Shown piece after piece: positions 1,876-22,366 of a stretch of DNA of 22,571 bases. The stretch's first letter is position 1; every line of letters starts with the position of its first letter. The notes beneath the pieces are model-generated. The model was not told where the DNA came from. It saw only the letters and a list, made by a program, of their open reading frames with translations, and did no database searches. The translations under genes were made by a program, and so were the position numbers. This DNA comes from Bacillota bacterium (GTDB lineage Bacteria; Bacillota_A; Clostridia; DSM-8532): NCBI GenBank assembly GCA_023424865.1, contig JAFADM010000079.1, positions 1 to 22,571 of the forward strand, given 5' to 3'.

Positions 1876-3861
1876 ATGAAAAGACTTGCGGTAAGACAGG
1901 TTCATCTCGATTTTCACAGCTCGGAGCACATTCCGGGCATAGGCAGCAAATTCAGCAAAAAAAATTTCCAGGAGGCATTGCTGACCGGGCATCTGGACTC
2001 CATAACCCTATTTGCAAAATGCCATCACAGCTGGTGCTACTTTCCCACGAAAACGGGGCAAATGCACCCCCGGTTAAACTTTGATCTTATGGGGGAGATG
2101 GTGGAGGCTGCCCATGAAATAGGGGTTAAAGCTCCCCTTTATATCACTGTGGGATGGTCCTCCAACGATGGGGAGAACCATCCGGAATGGCTGGCAAGGA
2201 ACAAGGACGGAAGCCCTCAGCTGACCAACTACAGTTTGGAGGCCAGGCCGGAGGATAAAAGGCCCATTGCCTCCTGGAAGGTACTTTGTCCGTCAGGGTC
2301 TTACGCAGCCCATATTTATGACCTTACCCGAGAAATAAGTGAAAGGTATCCAAAAGTGGACGGCCTTTTTTACGATATCTGCTTTATCGATGACCGGTGC
2401 TACTGCGACTCCTGCCTTAAAGGCATGGCAGAGCAGGGATTGGATCCGGAAAAGGAGGACGATGCCCGCGCCTGGTATATCCATATGCGCAGAGCGTTTA
2501 TGGCCCGGTGTACCGAAATTGTCCGTGAAAGGCACCCGGAGAGCACGGTATTCTTTAATGGCGGCGCGGATCAATACAGGCCCCAATACCATGATTTACA
2601 AACTCACTTTGAGCTTGAGGACCTTCCCACTACCTGGGGAGGCTATGATAAAATGCCGCCAAGAGCCAAATACTTTGCACGTACAGGCAAGGACTACCTG
2701 GGAATGACGGGGAAATTCCATACCATGTGGGGGGAATTCGGCGGCTTCAAAAACCCGGCAGCCCTAAGGTATGAATGCGCCGCCATGCTTACCTACGGCG
2801 CCGGGTGCAGTGTGGGAGACCAGCTCCACCCCTCAGGCGAAATGGATATGGATACTTACCGGAGCATCGGCTATGCCTATGAATACGTAAAGCAAATGGA
2901 AGACTATTGCTTTGAGACGGAGGAAACCACCCGGCTGGGAATCATGCAGTCCGGAGATCCTCAGTCGGATGAGGGCCTTGTTAAAATGCTTCTGGAACGC
3001 CAGATGGATTTTGATATTGTCCTGCCCGAAGACCCTCTTTCCAGGTTTGATGCTATTATACTTCCGGATTCAGTGGTTCTGGACGAAGAGACAGCAGCCC
3101 GCATTGAAGCCTTTGCAGCAAATGGCGGAGGGGTTCTGCTTACAGGAGAAAGCGGACTTAACAGGGAAAAGGACAGGCTCCTCATTGATACCGGAGCCGA
3201 CGATCTGGGGCCTTCAGAATATGAAAATGACTATGTCTGTGCGGGTACGGAGCTGGCAGAAGGGATTGTTTCATCCCCCTTTCTGTTTTATGAGGCAGCC
3301 CGCAGAGTTGGTGTAAGGGACGGAAAAGTATGGGCCTCCCTAAGGGAACCCTATTTCAACAGAACCTACGCCCGCTACTGCTCACATCAGAATACGCCCT
3401 ATAAGCTTGAAGCCGCCCCTTATCCGGCAGTGGTCGGCAAGGGGAGCATTCTCCACCTGACTCATAAAATATGCAAAATGTATTTTATCCACGGCGCCCA
3501 GTATCACAGGGATTATTTTATAAACGCCCTAAGGCTGGTGTATAAAAATCCTGTGATGAAGGCGGGGATGCCCAGCGCGGGAAGGGCGCGTTTTGTCAGG
3601 CAGCCATCCAATAACCGTTATATTTTACACTTGCTGTATGGCGCCCCGGTACGCAGGGGGAGGGCGGAGGTTATGGAAGATTTGCCGCCATTGTACCGCA
3701 TTCCTCTTAGGATAAGAGCAGCGGAAAAGATTGATCGGATTTATTCCGTGCCCAAGGGTGTTGAAATTCCTTTTACTCAAAAAAACGGAGTAGTGGAATT
3801 TACCGTTCCGGAGGTTCAGTGCCATCAGGCAGTGGTTTTGGAGTACGGGAATAAAGCCTGA
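1876..3861 (+). CDS. Putative cytoplasmic glycoside hydrolase (GHL6-like TIM barrel plus GATase-like domain)
   Basis: Probable glycosidase acting on imported oligosaccharides. The 661-residue protein has no signal peptide, so it should act in the cytosol. Residues about 1-330 look like the hypothetical glycosyl hydrolase 6 (GHL6) barrel: AKCHHSWCYFPT near 47-58, a strand ending GLFYDICF with Asp167, a C-x-C-x2-C motif at Cys175/177/180, and WGEFGG with Glu287. Residues about 350-450 (DFDIVLPED, FDAIILPD, GGGVLLTGES) resemble the beta-galactosidase trimerisation or GATase-like fold that follows such barrels. A small C-terminal beta domain ends the protein. GAGGAG eight bases before the ATG supports this start. 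Known relatives are annotated as alpha-L-fucosidase or beta-galactosidase-like, but the substrate and catalytic pair are not established here. It converges on pflB with only 14 bases between the two stop codons. Confidence 0.75.
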   Translation: MKRLAVRQVHLDFHSSEHIPGIGSKFSKKNFQEALLTGHLDSITLFAKCHHSWCYFPTKTGQMHPRLNFDLMGEMVEAAHEIGVKAPLYITVGWSSNDGENHPEWLARNKDGSPQLTNYSLEARPEDKRPIASWKVLCPSGSYAAHIYDLTREISERYPKVDGLFYDICFIDDRCYCDSCLKGMAEQGLDPEKEDDARAWYIHMRRAFMARCTEIVRERHPESTVFFNGGADQYRPQYHDLQTHFELEDLPTTWGGYDKMPPRAKYFARTGKDYLGMTGKFHTMWGEFGGFKNPAALRYECAAMLTYGAGCSVGDQLHPSGEMDMDTYRSIGYAYEYVKQMEDYCFETEETTRLGIMQSGDPQSDEGLVKMLLERQMDFDIVLPEDPLSRFDAIILPDSVVLDEETAARIEAFAANGGGVLLTGESGLNREKDRLLIDTGADDLGPSEYENDYVCAGTELAEGIVSSPFLFYEAARRVGVRDGKVWASLREPYFNRTYARYCSHQNTPYKLEAAPYPAVVGKGSILHLTHKICKMYFIHGAQYHRDYFINALRLVYKNPVMKAGMPSAGRARFVRQPSNNRYILHLLYGAPVRRGRAEVMEDLPPLYRIPLRIRAAEKIDRIYSVPKGVEIPFTQKNGVVEFTVPEVQCHQAVVLEYGNKA

Positions 3862-3875
3862 AATCACTATAAAAA

Positions 3876-6074
3876 CTACATGCCGTCATGAAAGGAGCGG
3901 GCAAGAACCTCTTTCTTTTGAGCCTCCGTCAGCTTGTTAAAATGAACGGCATAGCCGGAAACCCTTATTGTAAGCCAGGGATAGCGTTCCGGGCTCTCAA
4001 TGGCTTCGAGGAGCAGCTTTCTGTCCAGCACGTTGATATTCAGGTGATGACCGCCCTTTGCAAAATAACCGTCAAGAAGGGCAGCCAGATTGGCGGTGCG
4101 CTGACGGGATTCCCTGCCAAGGGAAGGGGGCGTAAGGGAAAGAGTTAGGGAGATACCGTCCCTGCAGGTTTCATAAGGGAGCTTGGCCACTGTATTCAGA
4201 ACGGCCAGGGCTCCCTTTTTGTCCCTTCCGTGCATGGGGTTGGCTCCGGGGGCAAAGGGCTCTCCCTTTTTGCGCCCGTCAGGGGTTGCCCCTGTTTTTT
4301 TGCCATAAACCACATTGGAGGTAATGGTGAGAATGGAAAGGGTATGCTCCGCGTTTCTGTAGGCTCTTCGTGCCTTCAAGTCCTGGAGGAAGCTGTGAGC
4401 AAGCACCACGGCAAGGCTGTCCGCCCTGTCGTCGTCATTTCCGTATTTTGGAAAGTCTCCTTTGATAATAAAATCTGTTACCAGGCCGTCCTCGTTTTTA
4501 AGGGGTGTAACCCGGGCATACTTAATGGCGCTCAGGGAATCGCATACAACACTCAAGCCCGCTATGCCAAAGGCCATAAAGCGGTGGACCCGGGTATCGT
4601 GAAGCGCCATCATCAGCCTTTCATAGGCATATTTATCATGCATGTGGTGAATGATGTTGAGGGTATCCACATAGAGTGCGGCAAGCCAGGCCTGATAACG
4701 GTAAAAGCTTTCCATCACCCAGTCAAAGGAAAGCGGTCCGGGTGGACAGTGTTCTCCGGCGGGGCCAATTTGTTCCCCCGTGAACTCGTCCCTTCCTCCG
4801 TTGAGGGCTAAAAGCAAAAGCTTGGGCAGGTTGCACCGGGCGCCGAAAAACTGCATATCCCTGCCTATGTCCATGGCCGACACACAGCAGGAAATGCCGT
4901 AATCGGAGCCAAAAACAGGCCTCATGAGATCATCGTTTTCGTACTGGATGGCACTGGTTTCAATGGAGATTTGGGTGCAATAGCTTTTGAAGGGATCGGG
5001 CAGGCGTTCCGACCAGAGCACGGTTAAATTAGGCTCAGGTGCCGGTCCTAGGTTTACCAGAGTATGGAGAAAACGGTAGGCGGTTTTCGTTACCTGGTGG
5101 CGGCCCGAACTGCTCATACCTCCCAAAGCCTCGGTCAGCCACACCGGATCTCCGGCAAAAAGCTCGTTGTATTCAGGGGTGCGAAGGTGTCTTACAAGAC
5201 GTAGCTTTATAACAAGCTGGTCGATGAGCTCCTGGGCGCCTGACTCATCCAGAAGCCCGTTACAAATATCTTTTTCAATATAAATATCAAAGAAGGTATT
5301 AAGCCTTCCCAGGGAGTTGGCGGCCCCGTTGGTTTCCCTGACAGCTCCTAAAAAGGCCAGGTAAGTCCATTGAACAGCTTCAAAGGCGTTAACCGCGGGC
5401 TTTTTGATATCAAAGCCGTAGGCGGCGCCCAGGGCTGCAAGCTCCTTTAACGCTTGAATCTGCTCGTAAGCCTCCTCACGAAGCCGTATGTTCTCCTCAG
5501 ACATTTCCTCATTGGCAAGCGCCTCAAGATCCTCCTGCTTTCCCTGGATAAGGGTATCTGTGCCATAGAGGGCTACGCGCCGGTAGTCGCCTATGATACG
5601 CCCCCTTCCGTAAGCATCGGGAAGTCCTGTAATGACACCGGAGCGGCGTGCCTTGAGCATGTCCCCGGTATAGGCATGAAAAACGCCGTCGTTATGGCTT
5701 TTCCGGTATTTGAAATAGAGCTTTTCCACATCCCCGGACAGGTGGCAGCCATAGGCCTCGCAGGCTTTCTTCGCCAGCCTCAGCCCCCCGAAGGGATTTA
5801 CCATGCGCTTTAAGGGTTCGTCGGTCTGAAGGCCTACGATGACCTCGTTTTTCCTGTCAATATAACCGGGGGCAAAGCTTAGGATACCGGACAGGCTCTG
5901 AACATCAATGCCCTTCACGCCACCCTGCCGGGCTTCTTCTTTTAAAAGCTCCTCACAAGTCTCCCAGAGCCTCCGGGTGCGGCTTGTGGGTGGAGCCAGA
6001 AAGCTGCTGTCCCCGTCGTAGGGGGTGTAATGGCCGAGGATAAAAGCTTCAATGTCCTTTTTAGAGGGATTCAT
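3876..6074 (-). CDS. pflB: Formate C-acetyltransferase (pyruvate formate-lyase)
   Basis: Cytosolic glycyl-radical enzyme converting pyruvate and CoA to acetyl-CoA and formate. The 732-residue protein shows the family hallmarks: YTPYDGD near the N-terminus, SHNDGVF and TGLPDAYGRGRIIGDYRRVA in the first third, the active-site Cys396-Cys397 pair in GISCCVSAMD, and the glycyl-radical loop RVSGYAV with Gly707 near the C-terminus. I place the start at the internal ATG at 6074, with AGGAAAGG upstream. The earlier in-frame ATG at 6152 lies inside the leader terminator and would add a hydrophobic 26-residue stretch unlike PFL. With this start it lacks about 18 N-terminal residues relative to the E. 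coli enzyme, including the usual W-x-GF segment. No activating enzyme gene (pflA) is next to it. Its leader carries a ZTP riboswitch, so it probably supplies formate for formyl-tetrahydrofolate and purine synthesis. Confidence 0.95.
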   Translation of the reverse strand: MNPSKKDIEAFILGHYTPYDGDSSFLAPPTSRTRRLWETCEELLKEEARQGGVKGIDVQSLSGILSFAPGYIDRKNEVIVGLQTDEPLKRMVNPFGGLRLAKKACEAYGCHLSGDVEKLYFKYRKSHNDGVFHAYTGDMLKARRSGVITGLPDAYGRGRIIGDYRRVALYGTDTLIQGKQEDLEALANEEMSEENIRLREEAYEQIQALKELAALGAAYGFDIKKPAVNAFEAVQWTYLAFLGAVRETNGAANSLGRLNTFFDIYIEKDICNGLLDESGAQELIDQLVIKLRLVRHLRTPEYNELFAGDPVWLTEALGGMSSSGRHQVTKTAYRFLHTLVNLGPAPEPNLTVLWSERLPDPFKSYCTQISIETSAIQYENDDLMRPVFGSDYGISCCVSAMDIGRDMQFFGARCNLPKLLLLALNGGRDEFTGEQIGPAGEHCPPGPLSFDWVMESFYRYQAWLAALYVDTLNIIHHMHDKYAYERLMMALHDTRVHRFMAFGIAGLSVVCDSLSAIKYARVTPLKNEDGLVTDFIIKGDFPKYGNDDDRADSLAVVLAHSFLQDLKARRAYRNAEHTLSILTITSNVVYGKKTGATPDGRKKGEPFAPGANPMHGRDKKGALAVLNTVAKLPYETCRDGISLTLSLTPPSLGRESRQRTANLAALLDGYFAKGGHHLNINVLDRKLLLEAIESPERYPWLTIRVSGYAVHFNKLTEAQKKEVLARSFHDGM

Positions 6075-6131
6075 AGGCCACCGTAACCTTTCCTGCCCTG
6101 GGCATAGGGTTGTTTCAAGAAGGAAAACAAC

Positions 6132-6177
6132 AAAAAACGCCTGGGCAAACACATATTTATATATGGTTCGCCCAGGC
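6132..6177 (-). terminator. Riboswitch expression platform: intrinsic terminator in the pflB leader
   Basis: Read on the minus strand, CGCCTGGGC (6177-6169 side) pairs perfectly with GCCCAGGCG (ending at 6138). The stem continues as GAAC/GTTT with one mismatch. TTTTTTG follows at once. The 5' arm is the same CCGCCTGGGC segment needed for the aptamer pseudoknot. Ligand binding and termination are therefore mutually exclusive, which predicts an ON switch. It ends about 60 bases before the pflB start. Confidence 0.88.
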
Positions 6178-6240
6178 GGCCGGCTTAAGCTTAATCATGC
6201 TCCCCTGCGGTTAATTCCGCATGTCCGCCAGTTGCATGAT
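6170..6240 (-). ncRNA. ZTP riboswitch (pfl RNA motif) aptamer
   Basis: On the minus strand, stem P1 is ATCATGC with GCATGAT (6240-6234 and 6200-6194). Inside it lie the conserved ACTGGCGGA, a second stem GCGG/CCGC with loop AATTAA, and GGGGAGC. A short linker with a GCTTAAGC hairpin leads to the conserved 3' element CCGCCTGGGC, whose GCC can pair with the GGC of ACTGGCG as the pseudoknot. These are the signature segments of the ZTP-sensing pfl motif, which senses ZTP/ZMP (AICAR) as a sign of low 10-formyl-tetrahydrofolate. This aptamer class is known upstream of pfl, fhs and purine genes, which fits pflB. Confidence 0.9.
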
Positions 6241-6294
6241 GTTTTATTTTATTAGGCCCTGCTGCTTCCGCATGAGGCCGTTAGATACAAAAAA

Positions 6295-6323
6295 AGTATA
6301 TATGGCCAAACTGCTATTGTCAA
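6295..6323 (-). promoter_or_regulatory. Sigma-A promoter of pflB
   Basis: On the minus strand there is a consensus TTGACA (6323-6318), a 17-base spacer and TATACT (6300-6295). Transcription should start near 6288, giving a leader of about 210 bases that holds a first GGCC/GGCC hairpin, the ZTP aptamer and its terminator. Confidence 0.85.
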
Positions 6324-14403: not shown

Positions 14404-15648
14404 TTAACCGTTCTTTTTCTCCAGAAGATAATCCATAAGAAGGCTTGCATCCTCAACATAATAATTCCGAGCTTTCGCGTAAGCCTCCGAATAAACAGCC
14501 TGTGAATCCAGCAGCTCGTTACGGCTGTCAAAAAGCATGAAGGGAACAGGATCCCGGCTATGGGTTTTTATGGACAGGGGAGTGGGGTGATCCGGCATGA
14601 TCAGAATTCGGAACGGCCCTATCTGAGGAAGCTCCTTTAGTAGAAAACCGAGAATATCCCGATCAATGATTTCAACCGATCGTACCTTTTCCTCCAATAA
14701 TCCCTGATGACCGCATTCATCCGGCGCCTCAATGTGGATATACACGAAATCCCTGCCGCTTTTAAGTTCTTCCAGAGCGGCACGGGCTTTGCCCTTGAAA
14801 TTGGTATGTATGTTTCCTGTAGCACCCTCCACATTAATAGAGCGCATGCCGGCCGCAAGGCCGATACCCTTTATTAAATCCACCGCAGAAATAACCGAAC
14901 CTTCAAGACCGTATTTCGCCTTAAAGGAAGGAACGGCAGGGCGCTTTCCCTGACCCCATAACCAAATAGCGGTGGCAGGGCGCAAGCCTTTTTCAATCCG
15001 TTTTTGGTTTATGGGATGGTTTTCCAGTATGGCCGGACTTCTTCTCATTAATTCCAAAAGGCGTTGGCCGCCCTCTCCGGCGGGTAGATAATCACTTATC
15101 CTTTTACCGGATATATCATGGGGAGGAGTTAAGCTCATATCCAAAGGGCCATTATTCCAGATTGCCAGGTGGCGGTAGCTTATTCCGGGATGGAAGGAGA
15201 TTCCGTCCCCGTTAAGGCTTTGGGCAACAGCCTTCATTAAAAGGGCGGCTTCCTCGGTGGTAATTTCCCCGGCACTGTAATCCGCCATCCTTTTGTCTTC
15301 GAATTTGTCCTCTCCTGTAAGCGTGACAAGATTGCACCTAAGAGCCACATCCTCATCGGACATTTGAATGCCCATACTCACTGCCTCCAGAGGAGAACGG
15401 CCTGTGTAATAGACCTGGGGGTTGAATCCAAAAACGGAAAGATTAGCCACATCGCTTCCGGCAGGAAGATTCTCCGGTACGGTTTTTGCAAGTCCCAGCA
15501 GGGATTTTTTTGAAAGGGCATCCAGATTCGGAGTATGGGCAGCCTCTAAAACGGTTTTGCCGTCCAATGCCTCAAGGGGTAGATCAGCCATACCGTCTCC
15601 TAAAAGAACAATGTACTTGGTTGTATTATTCGGTGTCATGTTCGTCAT
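14404..15648 (-). CDS. apgM: 2,3-bisphosphoglycerate-independent phosphoglycerate mutase, ApgM type
   Basis: Cytosolic metalloenzyme of the alkaline-phosphatase superfamily that interconverts 3- and 2-phosphoglycerate in glycolysis. The 414-residue protein has the N-terminal metal site LLGDGMAD (Asp17), the phosphoryl-accepting Ser in AGSDVANLS (Ser65), YYTGRSPLEA, and the C-terminal metal-site motifs IEAPDECGHQG and IMPDHPTP with THSRDPVPF. This matches the archaeal-type ApgM, not the longer GpmI. AAGGAAAG just before the ATG fits this start. An ATG three codons later is possible. Some bacterial ApgM-like proteins act as homoserine kinase, so that role is the main alternative. No threonine-pathway gene is adjacent. 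Confidence 0.85.
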   Translation of the reverse strand: MTNMTPNNTTKYIVLLGDGMADLPLEALDGKTVLEAAHTPNLDALSKKSLLGLAKTVPENLPAGSDVANLSVFGFNPQVYYTGRSPLEAVSMGIQMSDEDVALRCNLVTLTGEDKFEDKRMADYSAGEITTEEAALLMKAVAQSLNGDGISFHPGISYRHLAIWNNGPLDMSLTPPHDISGKRISDYLPAGEGGQRLLELMRRSPAILENHPINQKRIEKGLRPATAIWLWGQGKRPAVPSFKAKYGLEGSVISAVDLIKGIGLAAGMRSINVEGATGNIHTNFKGKARAALEELKSGRDFVYIHIEAPDECGHQGLLEEKVRSVEIIDRDILGFLLKELPQIGPFRILIMPDHPTPLSIKTHSRDPVPFMLFDSRNELLDSQAVYSEAYAKARNYYVEDASLLMDYLLEKKNG

Positions 15649-16246: not shown

Positions 16247-16291
16247 TCAATGTGAAAGACACTACTGAATTCTATGCCACTGAGGTGTAAT

Positions 16292-16645
16292 ATGACGATT
16301 CGCGAAGTTGTACAGCTATTAAAGGCCGTAGTTCATACCGGAGAGCATCTGCTGGAGCTTAATGTACAATCGGCATGCAGTGCGGATTTGATGAGTGACG
16401 TCATGGCTTTTTCAAAAGAAAACGCCATGCTTCTGACTGGTCTTGTCAATCCCCAGGTAATTCGCACGGCTGAAATGCTGGATATTAGGGCTGTTATTTT
16501 TGTCAGGGGAAAAAAGCCCCAGGAGGCTATGGTTCAACTGGCCGGAGAAAAGGATATTATTCTTATTTCCACCGATTACTCTCTTTTTGTTGCCAGTGGC
16601 AAGCTTTATGAAAAGGGAATTAACGGCTATGGAGAGCAAAGATGA
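16292..16645 (+). CDS. DRTGG-domain protein (first copy)
   Basis: Small cytosolic protein of about 117 residues, probably a ligand-sensing or partner module for the downstream hydrogenase. I choose the ATG at 16292 because GAGGTG precedes it; an in-frame ATG at 16274 has no ribosome binding site. Visible DRTGG-type features are SADLMSDVMAF, LLTGLVNPQVIRTAEMLDI and AVIFVRGKKP. These domains occur in phosphotransacetylases and CBS proteins and recur beside sensory [FeFe]-hydrogenases in clostridia. The stop codon overlaps the next start by four bases (ATGA), indicating translational coupling. A second, diverged DRTGG protein is encoded at 18489. The biochemical activity is unknown. Confidence 0.75.
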   Translation: MTIREVVQLLKAVVHTGEHLLELNVQSACSADLMSDVMAFSKENAMLLTGLVNPQVIRTAEMLDIRAVIFVRGKKPQEAMVQLAGEKDIILISTDYSLFVASGKLYEKGINGYGEQR

Positions 16646-17067
16646 GCGGTGTTATTGTGAGGGAGTACACTATTCCTGCCAATGATTTTACCGTTGCCGG
16701 AGAAGCCTCCAGCAGCGTGAGAAAAATACTGACCCAATTGGGCGTTTCACCTTCGGCAGTTAAGAAAACCTCTATTGCCATGTATGAAGCCGAAATTAAC
16801 GCGGTCATTCATGGTGGAGGCGGAAAAGCCCATGTGGAAATTGACAACTCCAAGGTTTACATAGCCATAAGGGACGAGGGGCCAGGAATTGTGGATCTGG
16901 AGCTTGCCATGCAGGAAGGTTATTCCACAGCCTCCGATCGGGTGCGTGAAATGGGTTTTGGCGCGGGTATGGGGCTTCCAAACATAAAAAAACATGCCGA
17001 CAGGCTTCAAATTGATACGGTGGTCGGAAAGGGCACAGATGTCTGTATCACCGTCTACTTCTCCTGA
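16642..17067 (+). CDS. GHKL-type ATPase (anti-sigma factor/serine kinase-like)
   Basis: Cytosolic 141-residue protein made almost wholly of a Bergerat-fold ATPase domain, like SpoIIAB/RsbW anti-sigma kinases. The N-box is EAEINAVIHG, the G1 box is DEGPGI, the G2 box is GFGAGMGLPNIK, and the last strand is GKGTDVCITVYF. It has no histidine dimerisation domain, so it is not a complete sensor kinase. The start has GGAG within the upstream gene, and the four-base overlap suggests coupling. Beside a HydS-like protein it is a candidate output partner that could turn redox or hydrogen signals into protein phosphorylation or sigma-factor control; that role is inferred. Confidence 0.85.
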   Translation: MSGVIVREYTIPANDFTVAGEASSSVRKILTQLGVSPSAVKKTSIAMYEAEINAVIHGGGGKAHVEIDNSKVYIAIRDEGPGIVDLELAMQEGYSTASDRVREMGFGAGMGLPNIKKHADRLQIDTVVGKGTDVCITVYFS

Positions 17068-17140
17068 ACATAAGGCTCATTTCTTTAAGGCGGAGCAGTA
17101 AGGCAATAAACCTTTCGGCTTGGCAGGAAAGGATGAAAAG

Positions 17141-18445
17141 ATGGAACAGGCGTATTTTCATTCCGTAACGTTAGACAAGGAGAAATGCAAGGGGTGTACA
17201 AACTGCATTAAGCACTGCCCCACCGAGGCAATACGCGTCAGGGGGGGAAAGGCGGCCATTATTGCGGAAAGGTGCGTTGACTGCGGCGAATGTATACGCA
17301 TTTGTCCGTATCACGCCAAAAAGGCTGTGACGGATTCTCTGGAGAGGCTAAAGGACTATACCGTCCGTATTGCACTGCCCGCCCCATCCTTATATGGCCA
17401 GTTCGGCCCAAGCTTTTCACGCAGCCGTATACTTCAGGGGCTTTTAAGCCTGGGCTTTGACGGGGTGTATGAGGTGGCGGCCGCAGCTGAAATTGTTACC
17501 CGGGCTACCGACAGATATATGAGGCAGGCTGCATTGAAAAAGCCTGTTATCTCCTCTGCCTGCCCAGCGGTGGTTCGTCTAATTCAGGTGCGCTTTCCCA
17601 ATTTGATCGATAATCTGGCAAAAATTGATTCACCGATGGAGGTTGCTGCAAGGCTGGCTCGGGAAGCCTTTTTGACTGAAAAGGGTGAGACGGCTTCTGA
17701 GGATCGTGTAGGAGTCTTTTTTATTTCTCCCTGTGCGGCAAAGGTGACAAGTGTCAAAGCTCCTTATGAAAGTTATGTGTCATCTGTAAGCGGCGTTTTG
17801 GCCATGAAGGAGGTATACCTTCCGCTTTTGGAAGCCATGAAAGCGGGGAAAATGGGTAAAACTCTCATACAAACCCTTTCCGGTCCCTCCGGAATAGGGT
17901 GGGCCGGTACCGGGGGCGAAAGTTCCGCTTTGTCGGGTGGACGGCGTATTGCGGTGCATGGCATCAAGAATGTCATTGACATTTTGGATATGACGGTTCA
18001 GGGTGCTCTGGACAGCATCGACTTTATAGAAGCGCTCGCATGTCCTGAGGGCTGTCTTGGAGGCCCCCTCACCGTTGAAAATCCCTTTATATCAAAAATT
18101 AATCTTAAATATGTAAGCGAGGATGCCGCAGCAGATAAGGTAAAAGCAGAACAGACCTTTCTGCCGGAGGGAGACAAGGATTATATCTGGAAATCTCAGG
18201 TAACATACCGGCCTATTTTAAAGCTTGATGAGGATATGCTCCGGGCCATTGAAAAAATGCAGCACATGGATGAACTGACCGACAGCCTTCCCGGCTTGGA
18301 CTGCGGTGCCTGCGGTGCGCCCAATTGCCGTGCCCTTGCGGAGGATATTGTACGGGAAAATGCTCGGGTGACGGATTGCGTTTTTAAACTCAGGGAACGG
18401 GTTAGTGATATAGCAAGCCTGCTTCAGAAAATCGAGGAGCTATAA
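17141..18445 (+). CDS. Putative sensory [FeFe]-hydrogenase (HydS-like)
   Basis: Cytosolic iron-sulfur protein of about 434 residues. Two N-terminal [4Fe-4S] motifs use Cys16/19/22/26 and Cys45/48/51/55. The H-cluster domain keeps the four cysteine ligands: Cys141 in SSACP, Cys198 in ISPCAAK, and Cys301 and Cys305 in ACPEGCLGG. The proton-relay Cys that precedes the first ligand in catalytic hydrogenases is Ala140 here, and the Met of the MPC motif is Ser197. Both are typical of low-activity sensory types. A C-terminal [4Fe-4S] motif (Cys388/391/396/413, DCGACGAPNC) replaces the PAS domain of some sensory hydrogenases. The ATG at 17141 with GGAAAGGA upstream is preferred over a TTG seven codons earlier. 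Its neighbours (ATPase, DRTGG, PHP) fit a signalling role rather than bulk hydrogen production. Confidence 0.85.
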   Translation: MEQAYFHSVTLDKEKCKGCTNCIKHCPTEAIRVRGGKAAIIAERCVDCGECIRICPYHAKKAVTDSLERLKDYTVRIALPAPSLYGQFGPSFSRSRILQGLLSLGFDGVYEVAAAAEIVTRATDRYMRQAALKKPVISSACPAVVRLIQVRFPNLIDNLAKIDSPMEVAARLAREAFLTEKGETASEDRVGVFFISPCAAKVTSVKAPYESYVSSVSGVLAMKEVYLPLLEAMKAGKMGKTLIQTLSGPSGIGWAGTGGESSALSGGRRIAVHGIKNVIDILDMTVQGALDSIDFIEALACPEGCLGGPLTVENPFISKINLKYVSEDAAADKVKAEQTFLPEGDKDYIWKSQVTYRPILKLDEDMLRAIEKMQHMDELTDSLPGLDCGACGAPNCRALAEDIVRENARVTDCVFKLRERVSDIASLLQKIEEL

Positions 18446-18488
18446 ATATTCCGGATGCAGGCAGAGAGACGAATGGAGGAGAACGGTT

Positions 18489-18833
18489 ATGACGGTTGAA
18501 GAGCTGGCACAGCTTTTGGAAGCGGAGATTCTCACCTGCAGGGGGGAAGCCGTAAGCCGAAGAGTATCCGGAGTGTATGTTTGTGACCTTCTAAGCTACG
18601 CCATGGCGAAAATAGAGGCAGAGGATGTGTGGATAACAGTTCATACCAATCTGAACGTAGTTGCGGTGGCCCTGCTTTCCGGGGTGGCCTGCGTGCTTAT
18701 ACCGGAAGGTGGGCAGGTAGAGGAGGCAGCCCTGTCCCGGGCTGCTGCCGAATCCGTTGTCCTTCTGTCCGGAAAGGCCTCCGGTGCACGCTATTGCCAT
18801 GAGATTTTGAAGCTTTTGGAAGGAACGGAATAA
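18489..18833 (+). CDS. DRTGG-domain-like protein (second copy)
   Basis: A 114-residue cytosolic protein starting after GGAGGAG. It has the pattern SGVYVCDLLSYAMAKIEAED, WITVHTNLNVVAVALLSGV, CVLIPEGG and VVLLSGKASG, similar in layout to DRTGG modules such as the one at 16292 but clearly diverged. It may heterodimerise with that protein or sense a metabolite; neither is shown. Its TAA stop shares its last base with the ATG of the PHP gene, so translation is coupled. Position between HydS and PHP is a recurring clostridial arrangement as far as I recall. Confidence 0.7.
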   Translation: MTVEELAQLLEAEILTCRGEAVSRRVSGVYVCDLLSYAMAKIEAEDVWITVHTNLNVVAVALLSGVACVLIPEGGQVEEAALSRAAAESVVLLSGKASGARYCHEILKLLEGTE

Positions 18834-19561
18834 TGGCTGCCTTCACGGACCTCCATATTCATAGCTGCCTTTCTCCCTGTGCCCATGAGGACATGACCCC
18901 GAACAATATCGTCAATATGGCCCTTATTAAAGGCCTGGAGCTTATTGCGGTTACGGACCACAATTCCTGTGCCAATTGCGGGGCTGTAATGGAGGCGGGT
19001 AAGAGAGCGGGGCTTGCTGTTGTGCCCGCCATGGAGCTGTGTACAGCGGAGGAAATACACCTCCTGTGCTATTTTCCCAGCCTTGAAGCGGCTCTTGAAA
19101 TGCAGTGCCTGGTTTATGGCAACCTGCTCCCTTACCCCAACAGGCCGGATATTTTCGGCGATCAAATTCTTATGGACAGTCTGGATGTGGAATCAGGCCG
19201 GGAGACTCGTTTTCTTGCAGGCGCAACGACACTGGATGTGAGGGAAGCCTGCAAAAGAGTGCGTGGGCTTGGAGGCGCCCCGGTACCCGCCCATGTGGAT
19301 CGGGAGGCTTTCAGCATGGTAAATACCCTGGGAACCCTGCCTCAGGAGTACGGCTTTAACTTTATGGAGCTGTCGCGAAGCTGCAATGCCCCGCTTTTTA
19401 TGAATAAACATGCTGAATTAGCAAAAATGAAATTACTGAGAAACTCCGATGCCCACTTCCTCTGGGACTTATTTGAAAAAGAGGACTGTGCACCCATAAG
19501 AGCGGTATCTTCTGCCGAGCTGGTGGATTTGCTGGAAAAAAATCTGTTGGGTATGCTATAA
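18833..19561 (+). CDS. PHP-domain metal-dependent phosphoesterase
   Basis: Predicted cytosolic phosphoesterase of 242 residues. All PHP metal motifs are visible: DLHIHSCLSP (His8, His10), VTDHNS (Asp42, His43), AMELCTAEEIHLLCYF (Glu68, His76), PAHVDRE (His154) and NSDAHF (Asp206, His208). The full metal set suggests an active enzyme acting on a phosphoester such as a nucleotide or sugar phosphate. The substrate is unknown. It starts within the stop codon of the DRTGG gene, with GGAAGGA upstream, and ends 66 bases before pyrK. Its place in the hydrogenase-sensor operon suggests a signalling or nucleotide-turnover role, which is inference. Confidence 0.85.
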   Translation: MAAFTDLHIHSCLSPCAHEDMTPNNIVNMALIKGLELIAVTDHNSCANCGAVMEAGKRAGLAVVPAMELCTAEEIHLLCYFPSLEAALEMQCLVYGNLLPYPNRPDIFGDQILMDSLDVESGRETRFLAGATTLDVREACKRVRGLGGAPVPAHVDREAFSMVNTLGTLPQEYGFNFMELSRSCNAPLFMNKHAELAKMKLLRNSDAHFLWDLFEKEDCAPIRAVSSAELVDLLEKNLLGML

Positions 19562-19627: not shown

Positions 19628-20401
19628 ATGAGCTTATATAAAATACAGCGGATTGAAAAACTCAATCAGGATACCTTTCTTTTTAGAATAGATTCACCGG
19701 AGATAGCCTCAAAGGCCAAAGCGGGGCAGTTTGTCAATGTCCTTTGCGGAGACGGGCTCAATGCCTATTTGAGAAGGCCTATCAGCATCTGCCGCACAGA
19801 TAGGGTTAACCTGACCTTTGACATCGTCTTTCAGATTAGAGGAAAGGGAACGCGGCTTCTTGCCGAATTCAAGGAAGGTCAGGAGCTTGACGTTTTAGGT
19901 CCGTTAGGAAACAGCTTTGCCTTAAACCCGGCCCACGAAAATCTCATCGTCATGGGGGGAGGCATCGGTATTTTTCCTCTGCTTCAGCTATTAAAGGATC
20001 ACCCGGCTAAGAGAAAAACGGCTGTGCTGGGGTTTAGAAATAAGGCTTCGGTGGTTTTGGAAAAGGATTTTTCCGAGGCCTGCCAAAGCCTTCTTATTGC
20101 TACCGATGACGGAAGCTACGGTTATAAGGGCTTTGCGCCCGAGCTGTTTGGTGATAGCCTCAAGAAGGACAGGCCCGATTTTGCGGCCATGTGCGGTCCC
20201 CTTGTGATGATGAAAAAGGGTGTAGGCCTGTGTGAGCACTTTGCCATAGAAAGCCAGGTGTCCATGGAACAGCGAATGGGCTGCGGCATCGGAGCCTGTT
20301 TGGTTTGTGCCTGTAAAACAAGGGATAAAAACGACTGGACTTATTCCCATGTCTGCAAGGATGGCCCTATCTTTAACGGCAAGGACATTCTGTTTGACTG
20401 A
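19628..20401 (+). CDS. pyrK: Dihydroorotate dehydrogenase B electron-transfer subunit
   Basis: FAD and [2Fe-2S] protein that passes electrons from dihydroorotate oxidation by PyrD to NAD+. The 257-residue length fits the family. The FAD-binding segment is YLRRPISIC (about 47-55), the nucleotide-binding segment is VMGGGIGIFPLLQLL (about 108-122), and the C-terminal [2Fe-2S] ligands are Cys219, Cys224, Cys227 and Cys243. AGGAGG before the ATG supports the start. pyrD follows after 36 bases, and the two proteins form the class 1B heterotetramer in the cytosol. It is the first pyrimidine gene after the hydrogenase-sensor genes on the same strand, with no terminator seen between them. Confidence 0.95.
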   Translation: MSLYKIQRIEKLNQDTFLFRIDSPEIASKAKAGQFVNVLCGDGLNAYLRRPISICRTDRVNLTFDIVFQIRGKGTRLLAEFKEGQELDVLGPLGNSFALNPAHENLIVMGGGIGIFPLLQLLKDHPAKRKTAVLGFRNKASVVLEKDFSEACQSLLIATDDGSYGYKGFAPELFGDSLKKDRPDFAAMCGPLVMMKKGVGLCEHFAIESQVSMEQRMGCGIGACLVCACKTRDKNDWTYSHVCKDGPIFNGKDILFD

Positions 20402-20437
20402 CAGAGTACTGAAAAGAGCAATTGAAAGGAAAAACGC

Positions 20438-21373
20438 ATGGTAAACGGCAATCAATCAGGGGAAATGCCTTCCCTTAAAGTGAATATCGGAGGATTGCAG
20501 CTTAAAAACCCTATTATGGCCGCCTCGGGAACCTTCGGGTTCGGAAGGGAATACGCCCGCTATTTTGATTTATCCCGTCTGGGCGGTATAAGTGTAAAAG
20601 GGCTTACACCCCTTCCTCGAAAAGGCAATCCGCCACCGCGTATTGCTGAAACTCCCGGAGGAATACTTAACAGCGTAGGCCTCCAAAATCCCGGTGTGGA
20701 TGCCTTTATACGGGATGAAATCCCTTTTTTAAGGCAATACGATACGGCAATTATCGCCAATGCCTCCGGCAATACCATTGAGGAGTATGCCGGTATAACG
20801 GAAAAGCTTTCTCATGCGGATGTGGATGCCATAGAAATAAACCTTTCCTGTCCCAATGTCAAGCATGGCGGTATGATCTTCGGCAGCACAAGGGAAGGTG
20901 TGGCACAGGTTGTGCGAGAGGTGAAACGGGTTGCCAAAAAGCCTCTCATGATAAAGCTCACACCCAATGTAACCGATATTACCGAGCTGGCTCTGGCTGC
21001 GGAAGCAGAAGGAGCCGACAGTGTATCCCTTATTAATACCCTTTTAGGAATGGCCATTGACGTAAAATCACGAAGACCCATCCTGGGTAATGTTATGGGC
21101 GGCCTTTCCGGGCCTGCCGTCAAGCCGGTGGCCCTTCGTATGGTCTATCAGGTGTCCCGGGCGGTTAAAATCCCTGTTGTGGGCATGGGAGGCATTTCAA
21201 ACGGACTGGATGCGGTGGAATTTCTTCTTGCCGGTGCTTCGGCGGTTATGATTGGAACGGCCGGTTTTGTGGATCCTATGGCCTGGATGCGTTCTTTGGA
21301 CGAGCTTGAGGCCTACATGACAGAAACGGGAGTTAAGGATGTCGGGGAGCTGATTGGCGCTTTAAAGGCCTGA
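20438..21373 (+). CDS. pyrD: Dihydroorotate dehydrogenase, class 1B catalytic subunit
   Basis: FMN enzyme that oxidises dihydroorotate to orotate in de novo pyrimidine synthesis, working with PyrK. The 311-residue TIM barrel shows NPIMAASGTFGFG near the N-terminus, NSVGLQNPG, the catalytic base Cys138 in INLSCPNVKHGG as in class 1B enzymes, and the FMN-phosphate region VGMGGISNG with VMIGTAG. AAAGGA before the ATG fits this start. The operon context with pyrK confirms class 1B. A PyrE-like gene follows after a 132-base gap that contains its own possible promoter. Confidence 0.96.
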   Translation: MVNGNQSGEMPSLKVNIGGLQLKNPIMAASGTFGFGREYARYFDLSRLGGISVKGLTPLPRKGNPPPRIAETPGGILNSVGLQNPGVDAFIRDEIPFLRQYDTAIIANASGNTIEEYAGITEKLSHADVDAIEINLSCPNVKHGGMIFGSTREGVAQVVREVKRVAKKPLMIKLTPNVTDITELALAAEAEGADSVSLINTLLGMAIDVKSRRPILGNVMGGLSGPAVKPVALRMVYQVSRAVKIPVVGMGGISNGLDAVEFLLAGASAVMIGTAGFVDPMAWMRSLDELEAYMTETGVKDVGELIGALKA

Positions 21374-21416
21374 ACAGGCAAAATGCCTCAGCCAGTGAAG
21401 ATAAAGGCTTGAGTGC

Positions 21417-21445
21417 TTGCAGTTAATTGTAAATTGTAATAAGAT
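21417..21445 (+). promoter_or_regulatory. Possible promoter of the pyrE-like gene
   Basis: TTGCAG (21417-21422), a 17-base spacer and TAAGAT (21440-21445) lie in the 132-base gap after pyrD. It would allow the phosphoribosyltransferase gene to be expressed apart from pyrKD. No PyrR-type attenuator is evident. Confidence 0.45.
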
Positions 21446-21505
21446 GCCGGAAAAATATAATTCTCTGCCTCATGAACTGAAAAACGAAAAGGAGAACAAA
21501 GAAAC

Positions 21506-22366
21506 ATGACAAATCTCACAAGTGAGCTTATTGGAGGCTTATTTGAAACCAATGCCATTCGGGTGTGCCCGGAGAACAAGCCCTTCTTTTACACCTCCGG
21601 CAAAATAGGCCCCTATTATATCAACACCCATTTTCTCTACGGCAGTCAAAAGAAGGCAGAGGCTCTTCTTAAAGCCATTGATGAGAAGAAGGCGGATAAA
21701 TTAGGCTGCTCCGCGGTTTTTCACCAATTGACTCTGGAAACTTACAGGCAGGATCCCATATACCGCAAAACCATTGACACTCTGGTGGAAACCATTCGCG
21801 CTATTCCCGGTGCCACGGAAGCAGAATATATTTCAGGCGGAGAACGCAGAGACTGGTTTTTTTCCTTTCTGGTAGCCGATTTTCTAAGGAAACCTCATAT
21901 TACCCTGTTTAAGGATATGGATGCTGTCGTATACAAGGAGGGTGCTTCCGAAAAAATTGAAGATCTGAAAGGTGCTTCCGTTCTCCATATAGCCGACCTC
22001 ATAACCACGGCTTCAAGCTATGAGCGTGCCTGGGTTCCGGCCATTAAAAGCCTTGGCGGGAATATGATTCACAGCCTCGTGGTGGTGGACAGACTGCAGG
22101 GTGGGGAAGAGGTTCTTAAGAAGCTGGATGTAAAATCCCATGCTCTTGTAGCCATTAGCTCGGAGACCTTTGAAAAGGCGTTCAAAGAAGGCTTTGTCAC
22201 AAAGCCCCAGCTTGATATGGTACTCAATTATATGAATGAACCCGAGGCATCCATGAAAAGCTTTCTGGAAGGGCATCCCGAGTTTCTTGAGGAGACGCTT
22301 AAGGGCGGCGGAAAAGACGCCGATAGGGCTCGTCTTTTGCTGGACAGCCATTTTTACGGCTTGTAA
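21506..22366 (+). CDS. pyrE: Divergent, long orotate phosphoribosyltransferase-like protein
   Basis: Likely converts orotate and PRPP to orotidine 5'-phosphate, the step after PyrD. The 286-residue protein has YTSGKIGPYYIN near 29-40, matching the substrate loop of OPRTases, and a PRPP-site-like motif VLHIADLITTAS (about 159-170). The motif usually has two acidic residues (VVDDVITTG); here one is Ala163 and only Asp164 remains. The segment SGGERRDWFFSFLVADFLRKP (starting at 110) replaces the usual catalytic-loop text. It is 70-100 residues longer than typical PyrE, with a helical C-terminal extension. GGAG upstream of the ATG is rather distant (11 bases). The location after pyrKD supports the assignment. 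An unrelated phosphoribosyltransferase role is possible. Confidence 0.7.
   Translation: MTNLTSELIGGLFETNAIRVCPENKPFFYTSGKIGPYYINTHFLYGSQKKAEALLKAIDEKKADKLGCSAVFHQLTLETYRQDPIYRKTIDTLVETIRAIPGATEAEYISGGERRDWFFSFLVADFLRKPHITLFKDMDAVVYKEGASEKIEDLKGASVLHIADLITTASSYERAWVPAIKSLGGNMIHSLVVVDRLQGGEEVLKKLDVKSHALVAISSETFEKAFKEGFVTKPQLDMVLNYMNEPEASMKSFLEGHPEFLEETLKGGGKDADRARLLLDSHFYGL

Follow-up and report, generated by a model that had tools for sequence, protein, structure and literature searches.

What controls the pyruvate formate-lyase gene (pfl) whose minus-strand leader, in a contig of a Bacillota bacterium, looks like a ZTP (pfl-motif) riboswitch, and what would such a switch say about the use of the enzyme? 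The class was first named for its arrangement before pfl, and its ligand is reportedly the subject of a 2015 paper from the Breaker laboratory. We analysed the whole 22,571-base stretch of DNA (the window), in which features lie on the minus strand unless marked otherwise. The element is very probably a transcriptional ON switch for an apparently monocistronic pfl, through which formate would relieve a block in purine synthesis. Judged by its sequence, the finding is genuine and is one clean further example of a well-studied riboswitch class.

Aptamer, promoter and target gene

An Rfam covariance search returned RF01750 (ZMP/ZTP riboswitch) at 6245-6163, minus strand, over its full length (model positions 1-86 of 86), with 61.8 bits against a gathering threshold of 39 and an E value of 4.7e-8. 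This was the sole match at the gathering threshold within the window, and it bears out the ZTP aptamer proposed by the initial annotation, whose segments are present in the order described on the minus strand between 6323 and 6132. The core segments are intact in the RF01750 alignment. The J1/2 segment GGCGG (6229-6225), which takes its role as the 5′ side of the pseudoknot from excerpts of PMC7337938, is complementary at the sequence level to L3, CCGCC (6179-6175), on the 3′ side. The alignment and the predicted folds both contain the P2 hairpin TGCGG/CCGCA (6221-6206), and the alignment places P3 with its loop at 6184-6170, where GCC (6184-6182) pairs with GGC (6172-6170). Two of the five model pairs of P3 and three model pairs of P1 are non-standard here.

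Upstream, a promoter scan identified the −35 hexamer TTGACA (6318-6323) and the −10 hexamer TATACT (6295-6300), which have the 17-nt spacer claimed for them and match the consensus at 11 of 12 positions. With four promoter-like sites in the 1.5 kb scanned and 2.3 expected, the pattern alone is weak; this pair has the top score of the four and is correctly placed for a riboswitch leader. Transcription probably starts near 6288. Minimum-energy folding predicts a hairpin at the 5′ end of the leader (6279-6255), outside the RF01750 match and, as had been noted, between promoter and aptamer.

The gene downstream on the same strand (3876-6074, 732 amino acids) encodes the pyruvate formate-lyase (PFL) that had been named as the target. 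It scores 1060.1 bits against TIGR01255, above the equivalog cut-off of 994.2, whereas 11 other matched families, among them other glycyl-radical enzymes such as PFL2-3 and choline lyase, all fall below their cut-offs. Among solved structures, the closest by sequence is that of formate acetyltransferase 1 (1h16). A Gly_radical domain is matched, and the protein contains CCVSAMDIG and RVSGYAVHFN, which we take to carry the tandem active-site cysteines and the glycyl-radical glycine, respectively. The riboswitch here stands before a gene of purine or one-carbon metabolism, and PFL is a published target of the class.

A likely ribosome-binding site, AGGAAAGG (6087-6094), lies 12 nt before the ATG. 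We rejected the GTG start at 6152 given in the open-reading-frame list, which sits on the loop side of the terminator described below; counted from the ATG, matches to relatives start at residue 4, 5 or 7. The next gene, encoding a glycosidase-like protein (1876-3861, plus strand), is convergent with pfl and the two stop codons are 14 bases apart, which suggests that no other gene is co-transcribed with pfl.

Other genes of the window include a cofactor-independent phosphoglycerate mutase (14404-15648, minus strand), for which a ‘proposed homoserine kinase’ model is also over its cut-off. A plus-strand cluster at 16274-19561 encodes DRTGG-like, HATPase (anti-sigma-factor-like), iron-only-hydrogenase-like, DRTGG and PHP proteins; the hydrogenase-like protein may be a sensor and not an enzyme, since its scores fall well short of the cut-offs set for the named [FeFe] hydrogenase models. 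Pyrimidine genes follow at 19628-22366 (plus strand): a dihydroorotate dehydrogenase over its cut-off, a dihydroorotate dehydrogenase electron-transfer-like protein that scores below its cut-off, and a phosphoribosyltransferase with weak similarity to orotate phosphoribosyltransferase.

Terminator and predicted switching

Downstream of the aptamer core, an unbroken run of 13 pairs, with a single G-U among them, joins a terminator 5′ arm (6178-6166) to a 3′ arm, the invader (6150-6138), which is followed by a run of six T (6137-6132). The 5′ arm lies largely inside the 3′ element of the aptamer and has four of the five L3 bases in common with it, in agreement with the initial annotation, which had made the two one and the same. 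Its description of the terminator as perfect is right about the contiguous stem and the six T and slightly too strong in view of the G-U pair. In the minimum-energy fold, five further pairs continue above the 13-bp stem across a one-base bulge.

None of 2,000 mononucleotide shuffles of the downstream DNA reached 13 bp in a contiguous-stem test (longest, 11). We used this test for the window terminator instead of an energy-only scan, which is unspecific: the real hairpin has −29.1 kcal/mol in that looser scan, and 15 of 300 shuffles reached −20, the best of them −32.4. The hairpin is also absent from a simple terminator scan, presumably because the rules of that scan allow loops of 3-8 only.

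We folded seven transcripts of increasing length, all starting at 6288. GGCGG/CCGCC pairing was predicted in five of them, with ends from 6163 to 6142, and in the last of these the 3′ strand of P3 is already taken by the invader; in the two longest, with ends at 6138 and 6132, the complete terminator takes the place of this pairing. The folding program draws no pseudoknots, so GGCGG/CCGCC is drawn instead of P1. This exclusive pairing in the predicted folds agrees with that reported, in excerpts of PMC7337938 and PMC10085676, for the Thermosinus carboxydivorans and Clostridium beijerinckii switches, in which pseudoknot and terminator are mutually exclusive.

We propose that transcription would start near 6288, that the aptamer would then fold, and that J1/2 GGCGG would pair with L3 CCGCC. 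Without ZMP or ZTP, the invader (6150-6138) would displace P3 and the pseudoknot, the terminator would form and transcription would stop in the T-run. When 10-formyl-tetrahydrofolate (10-formyl-THF) runs short, ZMP would accumulate, bind and hold the pseudoknot, allowing read-through into pfl; formate from PFL, charged onto THF by Fhs, would then relieve the block at AICAR formyltransferase. The aptamer, the mutually exclusive predicted pairing, the identity of the target and the presence of the element in relatives come from our analysis, and the ligand and the direction of switching from papers; we infer the transcription start and the physiological role here. The ON logic that the initial annotation had assigned agrees with that published for the class, as given in excerpts of PMC7337938, PMC2864571 and PMC10085676.

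Relatives, proposed formate supply and the activase

As relatives we took the best 80 of 588 PFL loci from a scan of genome contigs (highest identity, 66%). A plasmid search returned 150 records; the five listed have 60.6-61.4% identity and point to no origin for the window. Rfam placed a ZMP-ZTP element upstream of pfl on the same strand in 46 of these best 80 of 588 (by scan set, 14/18, 11/18, 9/18, 10/17 and 2/9), a survey that gives the frequency of the switch among near PFL relatives. The 34 of the same best 80 loci that lack an aptamer at the gathering threshold indicate that PFL does not need one; at one locus (L019) the contig has only 109 bases before the match, and this short contig may explain the miss. 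By a loose scan that is itself unspecific, 42 of the 46 relatives (among the best 80 of 588 loci) have a terminator-like hairpin that overlaps the end of the aptamer; the scan found no overlapping hairpin in L014, L062, L066 and L068, and in L025, L045 and L053 it picked long hairpins of doubtful standing.

Searching 108 loci with a simple pattern for the ZTP core proved too strict, recovering only L005, L084 and L098 (the last being the same element as L005), and was replaced by Rfam. One pattern match, L039:5407-5506, is likely false, being downstream of pfl and absent from the Rfam matches. FMN riboswitches also occur less than 3 kb from pfl at L021:2587-2715, L028:6989-7105 and L079:216-337, that of L021 divergent from the ZTP element and about 115 bases away from it.

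The genome-wide RF01750 search covered the 30 genomes of L001-L030 and found ZTP elements in 22 of them, 28 in total: 22 at pfl and six on other contigs. These six stand before fhs (L083), before AICAR formyltransferase (L084 and L107), before purE (L088) and before an IMP cyclohydrolase-like gene (L081 and L087), which in both cases scores below the NCBIfam cut-off and over that of Pfam and in L081 is followed by AICAR formyltransferase. All 30 genomes of L001-L030 have fhs, the match in G003 being partial.

Weinberg et al. 2010 (excerpts of PMC2864571) argued that a PFL controlled by the pfl motif provides the formate needed to make formyl-THF and purines, and the motif is described as frequently associated with a pyruvate-formate-lyase gene in excerpts of PMC7337938. 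Because some of the same genomes use the switch on fhs and purine genes, our survey supports this published reading. The initial annotation had likewise assigned PFL the supply of formate for 10-formyl-THF, which is reasonable in the light of these elements in relatives; such a physiological reading is sound in direction and already published, and is not new. We infer that PFL has this role in the source organism, where it may serve fermentation as well.

A different reading keeps the switch as real and makes PFL chiefly fermentative: ZMP would report on the state of energy or growth, and what the element tunes would be a catabolic enzyme, not the supply of formate. The surroundings of pfl fit it to a degree: its neighbours include sugar ABC-transporter proteins and the glycosidase-like protein, no activase was found beside it, and no fhs, folD or purH was found among the window proteins scanned. 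We nevertheless consider it unlikely, as relatives have the same switch before fhs and purine genes, and fhs is present in 30 of the 30 genomes searched.

The activase, identified as a radical-SAM motif in a strict and a looser version, is near pfl on the same strand in 74 of the best 80 of 588 loci by the strict version and in 75 when L021 is added by the looser one. The window contains no activase in any frame by either motif, and a tblastn search of it with the activase from the closest relative among the best 80 of 588 loci, L001, returned nothing at E values up to 1; the same query does find the activases of L002, L021 and L038. No activase motif was found near pfl in L004, L005, L063 and L074, nor in L059, whose contig stops a short way past pfl. 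Both L004 and L005 carry the riboswitch, and their genomes contain an activase over the cut-off on another contig; the genome of L063 has one activase over the cut-off, and that of L074 has none over it. At five loci (L038, L046, L060, L065 and L073) the activase motif separates pfl from a ZTP element that lies about 830-1,020 bases upstream of pfl, an arrangement that would put both genes under the switch.

The layout of the window is thus the less common one, and the switch in it seems to control the enzyme without its activase. With no activase found in the transcript or the window, a rise in PFL by itself may leave activity unchanged. It is conceivable, if rather improbable, that the regulon is split, such that folate stress, through the switch, sets the amount of PFL protein but does not raise that of the activase, which would lie unlinked elsewhere and gate its activity; formate for purines would then be made only when both conditions hold.

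Comparison with known switches

According to excerpts of PMC10085676, an invader with barriers, most of all with barriers close to the nucleation site, gives a higher ON state than a perfect one, and function is not accounted for by how stable the terminator is. In the window the invader is unbroken through P3 and the pseudoknot, and the G-U pair and the one-base bulge lie towards the loop. From the unbroken invader we predict a tight OFF state and a modest ON state, a prediction of low certainty because the loop-side G-U and bulge may themselves be barriers. That the element is degenerate or terminates constitutively, its response to ZMP lost, is very improbable: the invader does complement P3 and the pseudoknot without a bulge, and the ON state is lower with perfectly complementary invaders than with barrier-bearing ones (excerpts of PMC10085676), but the aptamer core is intact, its 61.8 bits fall within the 40.7-67.2 of the 46 relatives (among the best 80 of 588 PFL loci), the loop-side bulge and G-U could serve as barriers, and the −29.1 kcal/mol stem is no argument for degeneracy because stability does not explain function in that study.

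The transcriptional ON switch preferred here is like that of C. beijerinckii in aptamer class, in a terminator that overlaps the aptamer, in target gene and probably in ON logic. It differs in its invader, which has one G-U and one bulge, both on the loop side, in contrast to the three wobbles and two bulges given for C. beijerinckii in excerpts of PMC10085676, and in the predicted 5′ hairpin ahead of the aptamer; in the window, no activase gene was found adjacent to pfl. The Thermosinus carboxydivorans ZMP riboswitch, as described in excerpts of PMC7337938, shows no noticeable difference in kind from the element here and is likewise a transcriptional ON switch in which formation of the pseudoknot and formation of the terminator exclude each other.
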